A stretch of DNA of 64,000 bases from Acidobacteriota bacterium (lineage in GTDB: Bacteria; Acidobacteriota; Thermoanaerobaculia; Multivoradales; Multivoraceae). The position numbers and the translations under genes were made by a program. The stretch lies in assembly GCA_028875725.1 (NCBI GenBank), contig JAPPCR010000009.1, forward strand, positions 124,001 through 188,000, in the 5' to 3' direction. The notes beneath the pieces were generated by a model, which worked only from the letters and a program-made list of their open reading frames with translations, was not told where the DNA came from and did no database searches. Positions 44,181-53,919 of the stretch are shown here, piece after piece. Each line of letters starts with the position of its first letter. The stretch's first letter is position 1.

Positions 44181-46166
44181 ATGCGCAAACCGCCGCTGAT
44201 CGTCCTCTTCGCCGCTGCCCTGAGCGCCGGGCTTCCCGCCCTGGCAGTGGATCATCCGCTGGATCCCCTGAGCCACCAGGAAGTCTGGCGCACACTGGTG
44301 CTCCTCCGTGACGCCGGCCATCTGGACAGAGACACGAAGTTCTCCCAGTTGACGCTCCAGGAGCCAGCCAAGCGGGACGTCCTGGCCTGGAAGGCTGGCG
44401 ATTCGATGCCCCGCCGTGCCTACGCACTGGTCCGCAGGGACAAGGACTCCTTCGAGGCGATCGTCGATCTGGCGGCGGATGAGGTCGTGTCCTGGGAACC
44501 GCTCGAGGGAGCCGAGCCGAACTGGCACGGCGGCGAGTACGGGTCGCTGACGGACAAGGTCCTGGAACACCCCGACTTCCTCGCCGGCCTCGAGGCGCGC
44601 GGCATCACCGATCTGACGTTCGTCGATTGCAGCGCCGGGCCGCGCGGCTACTTCGGGACGGAGGAGGAGCAGGGCCGGCGCATCGCGCACGTGAGCTGCG
44701 ACGAGCCCGGCGGCGTCAGCCGGCAGGCGGTCGAGGGCCTGGTCGCGGTCGTGGACCTCGAGTCCGAGGAGGTGCTCCGCGTCGTCGACGAGGGCCCCGG
44801 TCCGATTCGCGCCGTCCCGACGGACTTCCGCGACATGCTCGGGGAAGCGAGGGAGATCACCGGCCCGCTCGAGATCCGCCAACCGCTTGGCCACGGATTC
44901 GAAGTCGACGGCTACCGGGTGAGCTGGCAGAACTGGAGCTTCCACCTCCGCCCCGACCAGCGCACGGGCCTCGTCGTGTCGCTGGTCGACTACCACGAGC
45001 ATCCCGAAGCCGCGGCGCGCCGGGTGCTCTACCAGGGGCATCTGTCCGAGATCTTCGTGCCCTACATGGACCCCAGGTTCGGCTGGTACACGCTGAACTT
45101 CATCGATGCCGGCGAGTTCGTCGCGGGTGGCCTGGGCAAGCCGCTGATGCCTGGAGACGACTGCCCGGATCACGCCCTGTACGTCGATTCGACAAAGACC
45201 GGCGCCAACGGCTATCCCCGGACCGTGCCGGGCACGATCTGCGTCTACGAGCGTGAGACCGGCGACCCTTCCTGGCGGCACTTCTCCGGCGAGCGGCCGG
45301 AGAGCCGGAAGAGCAGGGACCTGGTCGTACGGGTCGGAGGCAACGTCGGCAACTACGACTACCTGCTGGACTGGATCTTCCGGCAGGACGGTTCGATCGA
45401 GGTCCGCGTCGGTGCAACCGGCATCCTGGCGTACGAGACCACGGTCGCCGCCTCCGCCGACAGGCCCACGCCCGCCGCCGGACCGGTGAACGCCGGCGCC
45501 GCGGACGCCCTCCTCCAGAAGGCCTCCGCCGACGCCTACGGACGCTTCGTGCAAGAGAACGTCGTGGCGATCAACCACGATCACTACTTCAGCTTCCGGC
45601 TCGACATCGACGTCGACGGCACGGACAATCGCTTCGTCGCCGACCGCCTGGTCGCCCGCACCCTCCCCGACGGCCATCCCCGGCGCAGTCTGTGGGTCCA
45701 GGAACCTCGAATCGCTTCGAGCGAACACGAGGCCCGGCTGAACATCGACCTGAACCGGCCCACGCTGTGGCGCGTGCAGAGCACCAGCCGTCGGAACGCC
45801 GTCGGCTACCCCACCAGCTTCCAGGTGATGCCCGGGCGGAACACGAACACGCTGCTGTCGGCGGACGACTATCCACGGCGTCGCGCCGGCTTCATCGACC
45901 ACCACCTCTGGGTGACGCCGCAGCGCGACGCTGAACGCTTCGCCGCCGGCGACCACCCGACCCTCAGCGAGCCGGGCATGGGGCTGCCGGAATGGACGGA
46001 GGCCGACCGGGCGATCCAGGACACCGACATCGTCCTCTGGCACACGGTCGGCATGCTCCACCTGCCGCGTGCCGAAGACTGGCCCGTCATGCCCACGCTC
46101 TGGCACGGCTTCGAGTTGCGGCCGTTCGACTTCTTCGACCGCAACCCGGCGCTCGACCTGCCCTGA
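44181..46166 (+). CDS. Copper amine oxidase, exported (copy 1)
   Basis: Copper amine oxidases oxidise primary amines to aldehydes with release of ammonia and peroxide. The 661-aa product has a signal peptide and the full catalytic set: catalytic base Asp309 in NFIDAGEF, the TPQ-forming Tyr392 in GNYDYLLDW (spacing 83, as expected), copper His466 and His468 in INHDHYF, and the third His in HTVGMLHLPRAEDWPVMP. AAGGAG precedes ATG 44181. It is followed by a close paralogue; amines would supply ammonia for the adjacent amtB-glnK system. Confidence 0.93.
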   Translation: MRKPPLIVLFAAALSAGLPALAVDHPLDPLSHQEVWRTLVLLRDAGHLDRDTKFSQLTLQEPAKRDVLAWKAGDSMPRRAYALVRRDKDSFEAIVDLAADEVVSWEPLEGAEPNWHGGEYGSLTDKVLEHPDFLAGLEARGITDLTFVDCSAGPRGYFGTEEEQGRRIAHVSCDEPGGVSRQAVEGLVAVVDLESEEVLRVVDEGPGPIRAVPTDFRDMLGEAREITGPLEIRQPLGHGFEVDGYRVSWQNWSFHLRPDQRTGLVVSLVDYHEHPEAAARRVLYQGHLSEIFVPYMDPRFGWYTLNFIDAGEFVAGGLGKPLMPGDDCPDHALYVDSTKTGANGYPRTVPGTICVYERETGDPSWRHFSGERPESRKSRDLVVRVGGNVGNYDYLLDWIFRQDGSIEVRVGATGILAYETTVAASADRPTPAAGPVNAGAADALLQKASADAYGRFVQENVVAINHDHYFSFRLDIDVDGTDNRFVADRLVARTLPDGHPRRSLWVQEPRIASSEHEARLNIDLNRPTLWRVQSTSRRNAVGYPTSFQVMPGRNTNTLLSADDYPRRRAGFIDHHLWVTPQRDAERFAAGDHPTLSEPGMGLPEWTEADRAIQDTDIVLWHTVGMLHLPRAEDWPVMPTLWHGFELRPFDFFDRNPALDLP

Positions 46167-46243
46167 CCATTAGACTGCCGGGGCCCGGACCCTGGGGCAG
46201 CCACCGACCAGGCCTCAGCGTCCGGGACCTCAAGGGAGCAACC

Positions 46244-48241
46244 ATGCGCAAGCCGACCGTCCGCCTGACTCTCTGTCTTCTCGCCGCCGCAGCCGTCCCC
46301 GCGGCGGCAGCGAACCATCCACTCGATCAGCTCAGCTACCAGGAAGTGTGGCGGGCGCTCGTGATCCTGCGCGACGCGGGGCGGCTCGACGCTGAAACGA
46401 CCTTCTCGCAACTCACGCTGAGCGAGCCGGCCAAGAACGTCGTCCGCGGCTGGCGGGAGGGTGACGAACCGCCGAGGGCCGCCTACGCTCTCGTGCGCCA
46501 GGGCGAGGACACGTTCGAGGCGACGGTCGACCTCGTCGCAGGACAGATCTCCGCCTGGACGCAGCTCACCGGCGTTCAGCCGAACTGGAGCCTCGGAGAA
46601 TTCGGCGCGGTGGTCGGCAAGGTGCTCGAACATCCCGATTTCATCGCGGGGCTCGAGAAGCGGGGCATCACCGATACGAGCTTCCTGGACTGCACGACCA
46701 TCCCGCCCGGCTACTTCGGTACCGAGGAAGAGAAGGGACGGCGGCTCGGACACGTCCGTTGCTCCGAGCCTCGCGGCGCCAGGAACACCTGGGCGCGCCA
46801 GGTCGAAGGCCTGACCGCGGTGGTCGACCTGACCGCCGGCGAGGTGCTCAGGGTCGTCGACGACGGCGTGGCGCCGATCCCGGACGTGGACGCCGACTAC
46901 GACCGGACCACGCTCGACGATCCGCGCGAGATCGCGGGCCCCTTCGAACTGGACCTGCCCGAGGGCGTCGGCTTCGACATGAACGGCTACCAGGTGAGCT
47001 GGCAGAACTGGAGCTTTCACCTGCGGCCCGATCAGCGCACCGGCCTCGTCGTATCCCTCGTCGACTACCGCGAGAGCTCCGACGCCAGTCCGCGCTCGGT
47101 CATGTACCAGGGCCAGTTGTCTGAGATCTACGTGCCCTACATGGACCCGGCGTTCGCCTGGTACGCCCGCAACTTCATCGATGCCGGCGAGTTCCCGGCC
47201 GGCGGCCTGGCCAAGCCCCTGCTGCGCGGCCGGGACTGCCCGGATCACGCGGTCTACATCGACTCGATCAACACGAACGCCCAGGGCCGGCCGCGCACAG
47301 TGCCCCGGACCACCTGCATCTACGAGCGGGAGACCGGAGACCCGTCCTGGCGGCACTACGAGGACGAACAGCCGGACAGTCGAAAGAGCCGCGACCTCGT
47401 CGTCCGCACCGCCGCCGTGGTCGGCAACTACGACTACCTGCTTGACTGGATCTTCCGCCAGGACGGCTCGATCGAGGCCCGCGTCGGCGCCACCGGCCTC
47501 CTCGAAGTCAAGGCAACGAGCGCCGTGTCGGCCATCCCGCCGACTCCGGCGGCCGGGCCCGCGAACGCAACCGCCGTCGACGCCCTGCAGGCGGGGACGG
47601 CCGCCGACGCCTACGGCCGCTTTCTCGACCGCAACGTCATCGGCGTAAACCACGACCACTACTTCAGCTACCGCCTCGATCTCGACGTCGACGGGGCGGA
47701 CAACCGCTTCGTGGCGGACCGCCTGGTCACGCACAAGCTGCCAGCCGACCATCCCCGCCGCAGCCTCTGGGTTCAGGAGCCCCACGCCGCCCAGACCGAG
47801 CAGGACGCCCAGCTCGACATCAACCTCGCGCAGCCCGCGCTGTGGCGGATTCTGAGCACGAGCCGCCGGAACGCGGTCGGCTACCCCACCAGCTACCAGT
47901 TGATGCCGGGGCGCAACGCCAACCACCTGTTCGTGGCCGACGACTACTCGCTCCGCCGCGCCGGGTTCATCGATCATCACCTCTGGGTGACGCCATACGA
48001 TCCGGACGAACGTTTCGCCGCCGGCGACCATCCCACCCTGAGTGAGCCGGGAATGGGTCTGCCGGCGTGGACCGAAGCGAACCGGTCGATCAGCGACGAG
48101 GACCTCGTGATCTGGCACACGGTCGGCATGCACCACCTGCCCCGGGCCGAGGACTGGCCAGTGATGCCGGTCATGTGGCACGGCTTCGAACTGCGGCCGT
48201 TCGACTTCTTCGACCGCAACCCGGCGCTCGATCTCCCCTGA
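46244..48241 (+). CDS. Copper amine oxidase, exported (copy 2)
   Basis: A 665-aa paralogue of the preceding gene with all catalytic residues: Asp313 (NFIDAGEF), TPQ Tyr396 (GNYDYLLDW), copper ligands in VNHDHYF and GMHHLPRAEDWPVMP. Signal peptide LTLCLLAAAAVPAAAA. AAGGGAG precedes ATG 46244; the longer frame upstream reads back into copy 1 and is not the start. Differences from copy 1 cluster in the linker before the copper site and in the middle Cys-containing region (DCTTIPPGYFGTEEE against DCSAGPRGYFGTEEE). Confidence 0.93.
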   Translation: MRKPTVRLTLCLLAAAAVPAAAANHPLDQLSYQEVWRALVILRDAGRLDAETTFSQLTLSEPAKNVVRGWREGDEPPRAAYALVRQGEDTFEATVDLVAGQISAWTQLTGVQPNWSLGEFGAVVGKVLEHPDFIAGLEKRGITDTSFLDCTTIPPGYFGTEEEKGRRLGHVRCSEPRGARNTWARQVEGLTAVVDLTAGEVLRVVDDGVAPIPDVDADYDRTTLDDPREIAGPFELDLPEGVGFDMNGYQVSWQNWSFHLRPDQRTGLVVSLVDYRESSDASPRSVMYQGQLSEIYVPYMDPAFAWYARNFIDAGEFPAGGLAKPLLRGRDCPDHAVYIDSINTNAQGRPRTVPRTTCIYERETGDPSWRHYEDEQPDSRKSRDLVVRTAAVVGNYDYLLDWIFRQDGSIEARVGATGLLEVKATSAVSAIPPTPAAGPANATAVDALQAGTAADAYGRFLDRNVIGVNHDHYFSYRLDLDVDGADNRFVADRLVTHKLPADHPRRSLWVQEPHAAQTEQDAQLDINLAQPALWRILSTSRRNAVGYPTSYQLMPGRNANHLFVADDYSLRRAGFIDHHLWVTPYDPDERFAAGDHPTLSEPGMGLPAWTEANRSISDEDLVIWHTVGMHHLPRAEDWPVMPVMWHGFELRPFDFFDRNPALDLP

Positions 48242-48601: not shown

Positions 48602-49942
48602 ATGAGCTTCAGAACGCGAGGCCGGACGTTTCGTCTGGTTCCGGCCCTGGGACTGACGTTGCTCCTGGCCCTGCTGGCCGCTTCGCCGGCAGCAGCCCAG
48701 GACGGCGTGGACAGCGGCGACACGGCCTGGATGCTGACGGCCAGCGCCCTGGTGCTGCTGATGACGCCGGGACTGGCGTTCTTCTACGGCGGGCTGGTCC
48801 GCCGCAAGAATGTCCTCTCGATCCTCATGCAGTGCTTCCTCTGCATGGGAATCATGACGGTGCTCTGGGTCATCGTCGGCTTCAGCCTCGCTTTCGGTTC
48901 CGACGCCCTGGGCGGCGTGATCGGAGGCGGCGACTACTTCCTGCTGGGGGGCCTCGGCTATGACGCCTGGGACGGCACCGGCATCCCGGCGCCGCTGTTC
49001 ATGATCTTCCAGGGCATGTTCGCGATCATCACGCCCGCTCTCATGATCGGCGCCTTCGCCGAACGAATGAAGTTCAGCGCCATCTGCCTGTTCATGAGCG
49101 CCTGGCTGCTGGTCGTCTACGCTCCGGTCTGCCACTGGGTCTGGGGCGGTTCGGAAGGCTTCTTCGGCCTCGGCGGCGACGGCGCCCTCGACTTCGCGGG
49201 CGGCACCGTGGTCCACATCAACGCGGGCGTCTCCGCCTTGGTCGCGGCGATCGTCCTCGGCCGGCGGCGCGGCTATCCCGTGCATACCTCCCCGCCCCAC
49301 AACCTGCCCTTTGCCGTCCTCGGCACCGGCCTCCTCTGGTTCGGCTGGTTCGGCTTCAACGCGGGGAGCGCAGTCGCGGCCAACGGCTCGGCCGCCAACG
49401 CCTTCGTCGTCACCCAGGTCGCCACGGCCACTGCCGCAGCCGCCTGGGGCCTGATCGACTGGATCCGCGACTCGAAGCCGACGCTTCTGGGCGTCATCAC
49501 CGGCGCCGTCGCCGGACTGGTAGCGATCACGCCGGCCTGCGGCTCGGTCAGCGCGATCGGCGCGATCGGCGTCGGCGCGGGCGCTTCCGTGTTCGCCTAC
49601 CTCGCCGTCACCTGGCTGAAGTCCAAGCTCGGCTACGACGACTCGCTGGACGTCTTCGGCGTCCACGGCGTCGCCGGCATGTGGGGCGCGGTCGCGGCAG
49701 GCCTCTGGGCCACCGATGTCGTGCCCGGCAACGACGCGAACGGCCTGTTCTACGGCAACGCCGCACAGGTCGCGATTCAACTCAAGGCGGTCGCCTACAC
49801 GATCGTCTGGGCCGCGGTCGTCTCCTTCATCCTGCTCAAGATCGTCGATCTGATCGTCGGTCTGCGCGTCAGCGATGACGAGGAGCGGATCGGTCTCGAC
49901 CTCACCGACCACCGCGAAAACGCCTACACCCTGGTTGACTAG
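48602..49942 (+). CDS. amtB: Ammonium transporter AmtB
   Basis: A 446-aa ammonium channel with a cleavable signal (LGLTLLLALLAASPAAAQ) and 11 membrane segments. Hallmarks: DTAWMLTASALVLLMTPGLAFFYGGLVRRKN, FQGMFAIITPALMIGAFAERMKF, WLLVVYAPVCHWVWGG, DFAGGTVVHINAGVSALVAA (first pore His), GFNAGSAVAANGSAANAF and DVFGVHGVAGMWGAVAAG (second pore His). GAGGAGG precedes the ATG. glnK follows after 18 bases, the usual amtB-glnK pairing, so uptake is likely blocked by the PII protein when nitrogen is plentiful. Confidence 0.96.
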   Translation: MSFRTRGRTFRLVPALGLTLLLALLAASPAAAQDGVDSGDTAWMLTASALVLLMTPGLAFFYGGLVRRKNVLSILMQCFLCMGIMTVLWVIVGFSLAFGSDALGGVIGGGDYFLLGGLGYDAWDGTGIPAPLFMIFQGMFAIITPALMIGAFAERMKFSAICLFMSAWLLVVYAPVCHWVWGGSEGFFGLGGDGALDFAGGTVVHINAGVSALVAAIVLGRRRGYPVHTSPPHNLPFAVLGTGLLWFGWFGFNAGSAVAANGSAANAFVVTQVATATAAAAWGLIDWIRDSKPTLLGVITGAVAGLVAITPACGSVSAIGAIGVGAGASVFAYLAVTWLKSKLGYDDSLDVFGVHGVAGMWGAVAAGLWATDVVPGNDANGLFYGNAAQVAIQLKAVAYTIVWAAVVSFILLKIVDLIVGLRVSDDEERIGLDLTDHRENAYTLVD

Positions 49943-49960: not shown

Positions 49961-50302
49961 ATGAAGTACATCGTGGCGATTGTTCAGCCCGACCGGATGC
50001 AGGAGGTCCTCGACCTCCTGGAACAGAAGGAGATTCACCTGCTGACCGTGACCAACGTGATGGGACGCGGTCGCCAGCGGGGCGTCGCCGAGGTCTATCG
50101 GGGGCACAAGGAAGCGGGCGCGCTGCTGCGCAAGCTCAAAATCGAGATCGCGGTCAACGACGACTACGTCGACGTCGTGATCGACGCCATCTCGAGGGGC
50201 GCCAAGACCGGCAGGGTCGGCGACGGCAAGATCTTCGTGATGCCGCTCGACGAGACGATCCGCATTCGCACGGGCGAAACGGGCAACGTCGCGATCGGCT
50301 AG
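49961..50302 (+). CDS. glnK: PII signalling protein (GlnK type) lacking Tyr51
   Basis: A 113-aa PII trimer protein that senses ATP/ADP and 2-oxoglutarate and plugs AmtB. It aligns without gaps to E. coli PII: MKYIVAIVQPDR, the T-loop GRGRQRGVAEVYRGHKEAGALLRK, B-loop TGRVGDGKIFV and C-loop RIRTGE. Tyr46 is kept but residue 51, the uridylylated Tyr in E. coli, is Glu. Control by uridylylation is therefore unlikely; direct ligand sensing remains. AGGAGG-like GAAGGAGG precedes ATG. A strong terminator follows. Confidence 0.93.
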   Translation: MKYIVAIVQPDRMQEVLDLLEQKEIHLLTVTNVMGRGRQRGVAEVYRGHKEAGALLRKLKIEIAVNDDYVDVVIDAISRGAKTGRVGDGKIFVMPLDETIRIRTGETGNVAIG

Positions 50303-50326
50303 TTCTGCCGCATCGCATCTGCGGAG

Positions 50327-50368
50327 AACGCGCCGCGGGAGCTTTCGCTCCCCGGCGCGTTTCTTCGT
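50327..50368 (+). terminator. Rho-independent terminator after glnK
   Basis: AACGCGCCGCGGGAGC pairs with GCTCCCCGGCGCGTT with one bulge and a TTTC loop, then a T-rich run. Placed 25 bases after the glnK stop; glnE converges from the other side and may share it. Confidence 0.8.
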
Positions 50369-50421
50369 CTGGCTTCCGCTGGGTGCGCGGGTCTGACATC
50401 CGACCGCCCGCGAACGGGCGC

Positions 50422-53400
50422 TCAGTCCGAGAGACCGTCGAACAGCCGCTCGAGAGCCGCCATCCGCTCGGCGATGCGGTCCCAGGCGCCCTCCTCGTCC
50501 GGCAACTGGCCGAGGCTGACGAGCCGCCTCGCGAGGAAGCGGAACTCGCTCGTGTCCGCGGCGGGAATGACGAGGTCCTTGCTGTGGCCGCGGACGATCC
50601 GCAGGCAGTTGATCACCGCGCGCAGGAGCCGGTAGCCCTCGCCGATCTGCTCAAACTCCTCGTCCGCCAGGTGGCCGCGCTCGTGGAGCGCGCCGAGCGC
50701 GTCGAGGGTGTTCGTCTGGCGCACCTCCGGGTCGCCGGCGCCTGCCGCGATCTGCCGCACCTGGACAAAGTACTCGGCGTCCAGCAGACCGCCGGCGCTG
50801 AACTTTGCGTTCGTCGTGCCGCGGGTCACGAGTTCCGAGCGTTGACGGTTCCTCAGATGCCGGATCCGTGCGACGTCGTGCGGCCGCGGATCGAAGACGA
50901 ACTCCTGCCGGTGCGTCTCGACGCGGGCGGCCAGGTCCGGATCGCCGGCCACGGTGCGAAGCCGCACCAGCGCCTGGCGCTCGTACGGATCCGCCTCGCC
51001 GTCGACGCTGTAGTACGAGACAAAGCGCTGAAACGAGGCGGCGAGCGGCGACGAAGCGCCGCCCGGCCGCAACCGCCAGTCGAGTTCGAAGATCCCGTCG
51101 CGCTTGGCGCGGATCAGACGTGCCAGCCGCTGCGCCGCCCGCTCGTAGAACTCGCCGGCCCGGGCCAGCCGAGACCGTTCGGCGTCCCAGACGAACATCA
51201 ACTCGACGTCCGATGCGTACCCCAGATCGCGTCCGCCCCACTTCCCGAGCGCGCAGAGGCACCAGACTCCAGGCTCCGCCCCGTCTCCGGCGGTTTCCCC
51301 GACGGCTTCGGTCGCCGCCCGCGTGAGCACGACGTCGGAAAGCGTCGAGAGTTCTTCGCCGAAATCGCTGAATCGCTCGATGCGTCGCGTCAGATGCCGC
51401 ATGTCGATCCGCCCGATCTCGTCGTCCTTGAAGCGGTTGAGCGCCTCGTCCGGCGCCTGCTGCGCTCCGAGCGCGGCACCGAGACGGCGCTCCAGATCTC
51501 CTCGCCCGGCGCCCAGGTCGAGATCGGCCATGCCTTCGAGCAGCGGCATCAGGTTCTCGTGCTGACGGCGCAGGAACTCCTCCCAGAGCCAGGTGCCGGC
51601 ACCCAGCACGCGCGCCAGTTCGTCAAGTGACGAGGCGAGGGCCTGCGTCGGATCGGCGACCTGCTTGCACGCCGCGTCGATCAGCGCCCCGAACTGCCGC
51701 AGCGCGAGCTGCGGGTTCGGCGCCACCGCCAGCCGCCGCGCGAACTGCTTCATCAGCGTCACCGTCAGCCGCAGGTGGTCGACGCCGATGCGATCCTCGA
51801 TCTTTCCGCCGCTCCGCGTCGTCACGAACAGCCGGTCGCGCACCTCGCCTTCGACCGTGTCGAACTCCACCTTGTCGATCCAGTAGTCGCGGGTCGAGAG
51901 GACGTTGGAGAACTCGAACAGGAACATGAAGCTGTCGGGACTTCGGATCTCCAGGATCGTGCAGTGCTCGTCCGACTCGTTGTCGACCGAAATCGAGATG
52001 GGCGGCATGACCTGTTCCGCATCGACGCCCGCATCGGTCAGACGGGCGGTCTCCATCACGCGCAGGGTCAGCTCCTCGTTGGCGCGTTGCGCGTCACCCC
52101 TGGCCAGGAGTCCGAGAAGCCTGTTCAGGTCCCGCTCGAAGTCCGCCCAGGAGAAGACACGGGAGGCATGGGCCGGCGCCGGCTGAACCTCCGCCGAGTA
52201 CACGATGCGCGTGGGGCCATGCCTCGAGTGCCGCGACCTCTGGTCCCTGCGCCGGCCTTGGCGGCCGCGGCGGCCGCCGGGCCGCGTCGAACGACGCCCC
52301 TTCGCCCTTCCGGGCCGCCGGTAGAACTCCATGTCGCCCGCATCCTGGTAGGTGTAGGAGCTGCCGCTCAGGATCGACTGACCGTAGGCCGCCAGCAGGC
52401 CGCAGATCTTCGCGAACTCTCCCTGGTAGTCGTTGGCTACCACCGTCACCCGGCGAGTCGAGCCGACGTGCCGCACGTCGACCCGGCACAGTCGCTCGCC
52501 GTCGAGTTCGTGAATCAGTTCGACGTGGCGCGCCACCTCCTCCACCGGGTGGGCGAGAAAGTAGGCGCTCTCGAGGCGCCGGAAGTGCTCGTCGATGACG
52601 TCCGCGGGCAGATCCGGGCAGCGTTCCCGCACCTGGTGCTTGCGTTCCAGGAACTCGATCGTCTCGTCGAAGAACTCACCAAAGATGCGGCGCACCTCCG
52701 CCGACGTCTCTTCGTAGCGGCCACCCAGATCGAGGGTGTCAAGCGGCTGGCGCAGTGCGAAAGCAACCCGCCACTGGAATGTCGCCCACTGTTTCGGCTC
52801 TCGCGGAAGCTGGCGTACCGGCAGATCGCGTTCCAACTGCAACACGTGCTCGACGACGCGCAGGAAGATGTAGGCCTCGCGCAACCGGTCGTACTCGTCC
52901 TGGGTGATCACGCGGTGCGCCCGCAGCCGCGACATCGCCTGCAACGTGTTCGGTGAGCGCAGGCTCTTGTTGGCGGCGCCGTGGTAGAGCTGCAGCAGTT
53001 GGACGATGAACTCGATGTCCCGGATGCTGCCGGCGCCGAGCTTGACGTTGCCGACCTCGGTGCCCTTGGAGCGGAGCGACTTCTCGATCATCTGCTTCAT
53101 CTCGAAGACCTCGCGCAGCAGGGTCTCCGGCGACCTCTCCGGGTCGAAGACGAAGCGCCGCGTGCCGTCGATCAGCGCCCTGGCGGCGGCCGCGTCGCCG
53201 CCGGCGAACCGCGCCTTGATCAGCGCCTGGAACGTCCAGTTCATTCCGTAGCGCTCGTAGAAGCGGAGGTACTGGCTCACCGTCCGCACCAGGGGGCCCA
53301 TCTTGCCCTCGGGCCGCAGCCGCATGTCGACGCGGAAGACGAAACCGTCGCCCGTGTTGTCGGAGATCAGACGGATGAACTTCGGCGCCTGCCGCTGGAG

Positions 53401-53919
53401 TCGGTGAAGCGCCTCCTGGTCGACATCGTCCGAGGCGACGAAAAGCGCGTCGATGTCCGAGCTGTAGTTGACCTCCAGGCCGCCCCACTTGCCCATCGCG
53501 ATGACCGCGAACGGTTCCTCGGCGAGGCCTGTCGCATCGAGCGCACGCTGGACGCAGACATCCGCGACCTGGGAGATCTTCTGCGTCGTCGCGGCGAAGT
53601 CGTCGAGGCCGCTGAAGTCGGCGACCGCAACCCGGATCAGCTCCCGATAACGCAGGATGCGGAGCCAGCGGCGAATGTCCTCGTCCGGTGCCGGCCGGAG
53701 CGCGGCCATGCGCTCGCGCTGCTCGTCCACCGACTCCTGCTCGACGGGGAAGAGCCCCTCGTCCGCCTCCGGATGGGCGTCGAGCCACCGGGCGTAGGCC
53801 GGCGCGTACTCCCGCAGGATGTCGCGCTGCGAGAGCGCGAGCGTCTCCCGCGGATCCTCGGCGTCCTCGATGTCCATGGCCGCGAAGGCCTCGATCGCTT
53901 GCTCAAGGCGCGAGTTCAC
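50422..53919 (-). CDS. glnE: GlnE-type adenylyltransferase with inserted GlnD-like ACT domains
   Basis: The 1165-aa product has two GlnE nucleotidyltransferase domains. The first is near 143-157 (GKWGGLEVNYSSDIDALF) with its helical partner through about 420. The second is near 892-906 (GKWGGRDLGYASDVELMF), where the last acidic residue is Glu rather than Asp. Between them is an ACT domain (about 488-528: RRVTVVANDYQGEFAKICGLL), an Arg-rich linker (about 535-571) and a second ACT-like domain (about 640-708: EHCTILEIRSPDSFMFLFEFSNVL). Such ACT pairs sense glutamine in GlnD. It likely adenylylates/deadenylylates glutamine synthetase. GTG 53919 has AGGAGG seven bases upstream. Confidence 0.85.
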   Translation of the reverse strand: MNSRLEQAIEAFAAMDIEDAEDPRETLALSQRDILREYAPAYARWLDAHPEADEGLFPVEQESVDEQRERMAALRPAPDEDIRRWLRILRYRELIRVAVADFSGLDDFAATTQKISQVADVCVQRALDATGLAEEPFAVIAMGKWGGLEVNYSSDIDALFVASDDVDQEALHRLQRQAPKFIRLISDNTGDGFVFRVDMRLRPEGKMGPLVRTVSQYLRFYERYGMNWTFQALIKARFAGGDAAAARALIDGTRRFVFDPERSPETLLREVFEMKQMIEKSLRSKGTEVGNVKLGAGSIRDIEFIVQLLQLYHGAANKSLRSPNTLQAMSRLRAHRVITQDEYDRLREAYIFLRVVEHVLQLERDLPVRQLPREPKQWATFQWRVAFALRQPLDTLDLGGRYEETSAEVRRIFGEFFDETIEFLERKHQVRERCPDLPADVIDEHFRRLESAYFLAHPVEEVARHVELIHELDGERLCRVDVRHVGSTRRVTVVANDYQGEFAKICGLLAAYGQSILSGSSYTYQDAGDMEFYRRPGRAKGRRSTRPGGRRGRQGRRRDQRSRHSRHGPTRIVYSAEVQPAPAHASRVFSWADFERDLNRLLGLLARGDAQRANEELTLRVMETARLTDAGVDAEQVMPPISISVDNESDEHCTILEIRSPDSFMFLFEFSNVLSTRDYWIDKVEFDTVEGEVRDRLFVTTRSGGKIEDRIGVDHLRLTVTLMKQFARRLAVAPNPQLALRQFGALIDAACKQVADPTQALASSLDELARVLGAGTWLWEEFLRRQHENLMPLLEGMADLDLGAGRGDLERRLGAALGAQQAPDEALNRFKDDEIGRIDMRHLTRRIERFSDFGEELSTLSDVVLTRAATEAVGETAGDGAEPGVWCLCALGKWGGRDLGYASDVELMFVWDAERSRLARAGEFYERAAQRLARLIRAKRDGIFELDWRLRPGGASSPLAASFQRFVSYYSVDGEADPYERQALVRLRTVAGDPDLAARVETHRQEFVFDPRPHDVARIRHLRNRQRSELVTRGTTNAKFSAGGLLDAEYFVQVRQIAAGAGDPEVRQTNTLDALGALHERGHLADEEFEQIGEGYRLLRAVINCLRIVRGHSKDLVIPAADTSEFRFLARRLVSLGQLPDEEGAWDRIAERMAALERLFDGLSD

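Follow-up and report, generated by a model that had tools for sequence, protein, structure and literature searches.

Can a nitrogen sensor and the enzyme at the far end of its cascade be carried on one polypeptide, and can the relay between them then be dispensed with? The GlnD-PII-GlnE-GS (glutamine synthetase) cascade is a textbook two-cycle covalent signalling system. GlnD is the glutamine sensor, and its ACT domains are believed to be the sensing part (PMC3173338, PMC4285133). In E. coli, PII and PII-UMP decide which of GlnE's two activities prevails (PMC12409994). The locus that raises our question lies in the window, by which we mean the whole stretch of 64,000 nucleotides that was analysed. 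The window comes from a genome of 4.5 Mb that is 98% complete. The genomes closest to it were assembled from metagenomes and bear the titles Thermoanaerobaculia, Holophagales, Acidobacteria and 'Candidatus Multivorans'; we take them to be sponge symbionts.

A genuine GlnE with an insertion

The gene is an open reading frame of 1165 aa at 50422-53919 on the minus strand, just as an earlier note on this DNA had placed it, and it encodes a two-headed glutamine synthetase adenylyltransferase. The stop codon is at 50422-50424. The start is a GTG at 53919, preceded by a GAGGAGG ribosome-binding site, and relatives show an ATG at the same position. From the N-terminus onwards the protein reads as follows.

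53185..53832, minus strand: N-terminal nucleotidyltransferase, residues 30-245 (Pfam GlnE, match to 1v4a, motif alignment)
52669..53100, minus strand: first GlnD_UR_UTase helical domain, residues 274-417 (Pfam)
52489..52668, minus strand: helical linker, residues 418-477, homologous to the stretch before ACT1 of GlnD
52084..52488, minus strand: ACT-a, residues 478-612 (GlnD profiles, profile-profile comparison, AlphaFold)
52213..52314, minus strand: Arg-rich disordered loop in the beta2-beta3 hairpin of ACT-a, residues 536-569 (pLDDT below 50)
51715..52002, minus strand: ACT-b, residues 640-735 (GlnD profiles, profile-profile comparison, AlphaFold)
51280..51714, minus strand: helical region preceding the C-terminal catalytic domain, residues 736-880
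50515..51279, minus strand: C-terminal nucleotidyltransferase and UR_UTase half, residues 881-1135

This protein is a genuine GlnE with a GlnD-type ACT-ACT module inserted between its halves. In Pfam both GlnE and GlnD_UR_UTase match at two places, each GlnE nucleotidyltransferase being followed by a UR_UTase domain. Among the NCBIfam models those for GlnE score highest, and those for GlnD match parts only, including residues 425-527 and 624-710. Over its whole length the protein falls below both GlnE equivalog cut-offs (395 against 625, and 352 against 487); its relatives L104 (566) and L105 (510) are above the second. The nucleotidyltransferase motifs are 736-762 residues apart in the fused proteins, as against 439-609 in 20 canonical GlnEs (528 in E. 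coli), and residues 736-880 occupy the position of the canonical inter-half region. By homology with E. coli the N half would be the deadenylylating one, and the C half, again by homology, would be the adenylylating one.

The idea that this is a GlnD misread as GlnE is excluded, since the HD domain is absent and both halves are GlnE-type. No HD match was obtained in the window protein or in L104 and L105; the separate GlnD of G270, a genome that also has a fused GlnE, shows one. An assembly or frame artefact is excluded by 17 further loci with the same full-length frame, together with purifying selection.

The inserted ACT domains

An HMM built from residues 420-734 picks up many GlnDs of Acidobacteriota at their C-termini, with both ACT positions aligning collinearly, and none of the canonical GlnEs searched. 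Comparing a profile of the fused segment with one of GlnD C-termini yields 99.7% (E 1.1e-25). In the relative L104, Pfam ACT_ACR9_3rd is above its cut-off, and a GlnD model matches at E 1.5e-34, best over the ACT region. Among the families searched, the ACT pair is closest to the GlnD module. Judged by these profiles the ACT domains are of GlnD type.

The structure prediction says the same. A full-length AlphaFold model was good for the halves and poor for the ACT region, which was solved by a run on residues 469-735 with a better alignment of fused and GlnD sequences. This model (mean pLDDT 77.8, pTM 0.77, and pLDDT mostly 80-95 outside the loop) has two beta-beta-alpha-beta-beta-alpha units, which is the ACT topology, and is disordered at 537-565. 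Foldseek searches with it return ACT-like and amino-acid-binding ACT domains among the matches at modest E-values; against the PDB the scores are moderate, with ACT-like matches at E about 1e-2 and prob 1.00.

The central claim of the earlier note, a GlnE with GlnD-like ACT domains between its halves, is therefore borne out by domain profiles, profile-profile comparison and AlphaFold together, and the ACT fold that it proposed looking for is present in the model of residues 469-735. It was right that there are two such domains and wrong about their extents: it gave 488-528 and 640-708, and we find 478 to about 612 and 640 to about 735. Its Arg-rich linker between the domains has to be abandoned. 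The predicted topology makes this stretch a loop within the first ACT hairpin, one that varies in length among relatives. Chance similarity caused by a low-complexity Arg stretch is excluded, since the signal sits in the ACT cores that flank it.

The ligand loop of ACT-a, DYQG, keeps its Asp and Gly and is conserved across the window's genus. In ACT-b the loop reads DSFM in this genus, the usual Gly being replaced; the Gly is present in L104-L106. We measured selection by pooling pN/pS within the genus. The values are 0.088 for the N half, 0.18 for the C half, 0.16 for ACT-a and 0.079 for ACT-b, so purifying selection on the ACT cores is as strong as on the catalytic halves. The Arg-rich loop, at 0.66, is under little purifying selection.

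Distribution and a probable single origin

Within the class, 24 of 149 genomes have a GlnE. The window's genus accounts for 21 of these, counting the window genome, and another family for the other three. Every one of the 21 genomes searched in the genus has it, one as a fragment, and the full fused sequence was read at 17 loci. The other three (G270, G275 and G276) represent three genera, and their full-length homologues, at about 600 bits, have the same insertion. GlnE is absent from all three other genomes searched in the window's own family. Among 217 Acidobacteriota genomes, no GlnE frame outside the class exceeds 1121 aa. The viral contigs searched gave no fused GlnE, and matches in a plasmid collection covered the two halves alone, never 80% of the query.

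In a midpoint-rooted tree built from the catalytic halves, all fused proteins compared form one clade (support 100/100), and the canonical Acidobacteriota GlnEs are separate from it (98/97). The simplest reading of this tree is that the fusion originated once. No paper was found in the open-access literature that joins an ACT domain with glutamine synthetase adenylyltransferase, and none that combines GlnE, GlnD and the ACT domain.

Two further observations belong here. In L014, a contig labelled Vicinamibacteraceae, there is a fused GlnE with 93% identity to that of the window, and either the label or the binning is probably wrong. Most canonical GlnEs have about 500-530 residues between motifs, and those of two other Acidobacteriota families are longer (609 in L069:5908-9270 and 579 in L071:745-3969), with no ACT domain detected.

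The catalytic halves and their target

Both halves of the fused GlnE have three acidic metal-site residues. In the N half these are D155, D157 and D198, all retained; in the C half they are D904, E906 and D947, with one Asp changed to Glu, so that the motif there is D-x-E. All 20 canonical GlnEs compared have D-x-D here, and every fused protein checked, in both families, has D-x-E. Such a change of metal ligand could weaken the adenylylating half.

The main (class I) glutamine synthetase of the window genome keeps the adenylylation Tyr (DIYDLSPEE, compared with NLYDLPPEE in E. coli), which the earlier note had recommended checking. The gene of the cognate enzyme is at C9:16502-17596 of the genome. 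A second glutamine synthetase is without the motif. The Tyr is likewise retained in the main enzymes of G270, G275 and G276. In G275, as in G276, a glutamine synthetase gene is the direct convergent neighbour of the fused glnE. A single gene separates the two in G270, where glnD, PII, amt and glutamine synthetase are clustered with the fused glnE; the intervening gene (L106:10536-15083, plus strand) encodes a large hybrid sensor kinase with MASE1, CHASE, PAS, GAF, HisKA and receiver domains.

The D-x-E motif that every fused protein checked has in its adenylylating half invites the argument that the protein acts on some other target, or that just one of its halves is active, and that it is no bidirectional regulator of glutamine synthetase at all. 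We consider this highly improbable. The remaining metal-site positions are kept, and Glu is accepted at this position in the wider nucleotidyltransferase superfamily. Glutamine synthetase, moreover, retains its Tyr, and the fused glnE lies near its gene in three genera.

GlnD and PII

A search of the window genome turned up neither a separate glnD nor a second, normal glnE, the two genes that the earlier note suggested looking for. There is no other UR_UTase protein in it and therefore no detectable GlnD. Six further genomes of the genus were searched and glnD was found in none of them. The sole PII gene of the genome lies next to the fused glnE.

48602..49942, plus strand: amt (ammonium transporter), with 18 bases between it and the glnK that follows
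49961..50302, plus strand: glnK (PII), with the codon for the Glu at position 51 at 50111-50113

The T-loop of this PII has Glu at position 51 and not the modifiable Tyr51. PII with Tyr51 is present in each of ten examined genomes that have GlnD (G008, G009, G023, G067, G076, G084, G091, G116, G139 and G270), and no Tyr51 PII occurs in the GlnD-negative Acidobacteriota examined (the window's genus, G276, G128, G050 and G028). G275 is the exception: it has a GlnD, 55% identical to that of G270 over 867 aa, and Tyr51 PII was not found in it. The loss of a GlnD from view through incomplete assembly is unlikely, given six more genomes of the genus without glnD and a PII without Tyr51.

Since the only PII has Glu51, a GlnD-to-PII relay is unlikely in the window organism, and on the sequences PII-UMP cannot form in the usual way in its genus. 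The absence of GlnD and of Tyr51 suggests that the covalent relay has been replaced there. To this extent the earlier note's suggestion that no GlnD-to-PII relay is needed holds up for the window genome. It does not extend to G270 and G275, which have the fused GlnE and keep a complete GlnD (G270 with Tyr51 PII as well). The fusion alone therefore does not replace GlnD; since the two coexist, it either preceded the loss of GlnD or has some further role.

In the window genome glnE is convergent with amt-glnK, an order kept wherever the relatives' contigs reach far enough. Because the PII gene adjoins glnE, direct binding by unmodified PII is possible. One can go further and argue that the ACT pair chiefly serves structure or dimerisation, or gives unmodified PII a place to dock, with the signal coming from PII's ADP/ATP/2-oxoglutarate state. 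ACT domains often dimerise, and ACT-b is the most constrained part of the protein despite its changed ligand loop; both this and the position of glnK fit such a role. We think it doubtful all the same, because ACT-a retains the Asp and Gly of its ligand loop and a search of 19 kb around the fused glnE, in G275 and in G276, showed no PII gene.

The surroundings of amt-glnK deserve a brief description. The 50303-50421 interval between the convergent glnK and glnE holds a GC-rich hairpin and then T-rich sequence, probably a shared terminator. Directly upstream of amt-glnK are tandem copper amine oxidase genes (44181-46166 and 45992-48241, plus strand; Pfam). Copper amine oxidases act on amines and set ammonia free, so these genes may together form a cluster for scavenging ammonium. 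Elsewhere in the class (L121, L122, L124, L129, L134, L135 and L136) there are PII-like proteins with T-loops of the form HGGE...YRGTTV or YRGHPL; these have Val or Leu at position 51 and are a distinct PII group.

A shortened cascade?

The account that we think is probably correct is a GlnD-free circuit in which the ACT pair senses in cis and shifts the balance between the GlnE halves. The fused GlnE would adenylylate and deadenylylate glutamine synthetase from separate halves. ACT-a would bind glutamine or another amino acid that signals nitrogen status, and ACT-b, having lost the ligand-loop Gly in the window's genus, is probably its structural or dimerising partner. Placed between halves that are normally switched by PII-UMP, the pair would supply that switch itself. 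High glutamine at ACT-a would favour adenylylation and lower glutamine synthetase activity; low glutamine would favour deadenylylation. The ligand, the direction of the effect and the activity of both halves are things that we infer.

This circuit can be put in a stronger and more historical form: GlnE acquired the sensor domains of GlnD, the cycle of PII modification by GlnD disappeared, and glutamine now controls the adenylylation of glutamine synthetase in cis. We are evenly divided on this form. If it is right, the relatives would preserve the stages, from the canonical set, through G270, which combines the fused GlnE with GlnD and Tyr51 PII, to G276 and the window's genus, in which the fused GlnE is accompanied by neither.

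The canonical E. coli ATase has its own site for allosteric regulation by glutamine (PMC5448240), which means that the ACT pair could be sensing something else. It might respond to another amino acid as feedback, perhaps an end product of the metabolism of glutamine, leaving glutamine itself to the ordinary GlnE site. G270 and G275, with both GlnD and fused GlnE, would otherwise sense glutamine twice, and in the window's genus the ligand loop of ACT-b differs from that of GlnD. This seems to us unlikely nonetheless, because the pair is collinear with and closest to the module of GlnD, and GlnD senses glutamine (PMC4285133). Of the earlier note's proposal that one protein reads glutamine and controls glutamine synthetase, the second half gains from the retained Tyr; the first cannot count as a novelty, given the site already described (PMC5448240).

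If the cis-sensing circuit is real, sensor and effector share a polypeptide in it and the middle cycle is gone. It would then show how cascades can shorten, and would make the added value of the PII relay directly testable. The protein is also a natural fusion in which to study how a signal passes from GlnD's ACT domains to a nucleotidyltransferase.

Comparison with known systems

What appears to be new here is the embedded GlnD-type ACT pair; the glutamine response of GlnE was known already. Like the GlnE of E. coli (PDB 1v4a, 3k7d), the fused protein has two halves of nucleotidyltransferase and UR_UTase in the same order, with the same N-half motifs, and a glutamine synthetase with the target Tyr is encoded in its genome. 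It differs in having about 220 more residues between the halves, which are the two ACT domains, and D-x-E in place of D-x-D in the C half.

With GlnD it shares a homologous and collinear ACT-ACT module, including the helical stretch that precedes it. In GlnD this module is C-terminal, whereas here it is internal; the fused protein also lacks the HD domain and has a second catalytic half, both halves being GlnE-type, and the window genome is without the Tyr51 PII.

The fused GlnEs of G270, G275 and G276 agree with the window's in domain order, in D-x-E and in having a loop at the same place in ACT-a. They differ in keeping the ligand-loop Gly of ACT-b and in lying near glnA rather than amt-glnK, and G270 and G275 have a separate GlnD. 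The plant ACR proteins (ACR11/ACR12) also have a GlnD-type ACT pair apart from the catalytic domains of GlnD. In the plant proteins, however, the catalytic domain is absent; in the fused GlnE the pair sits between two.
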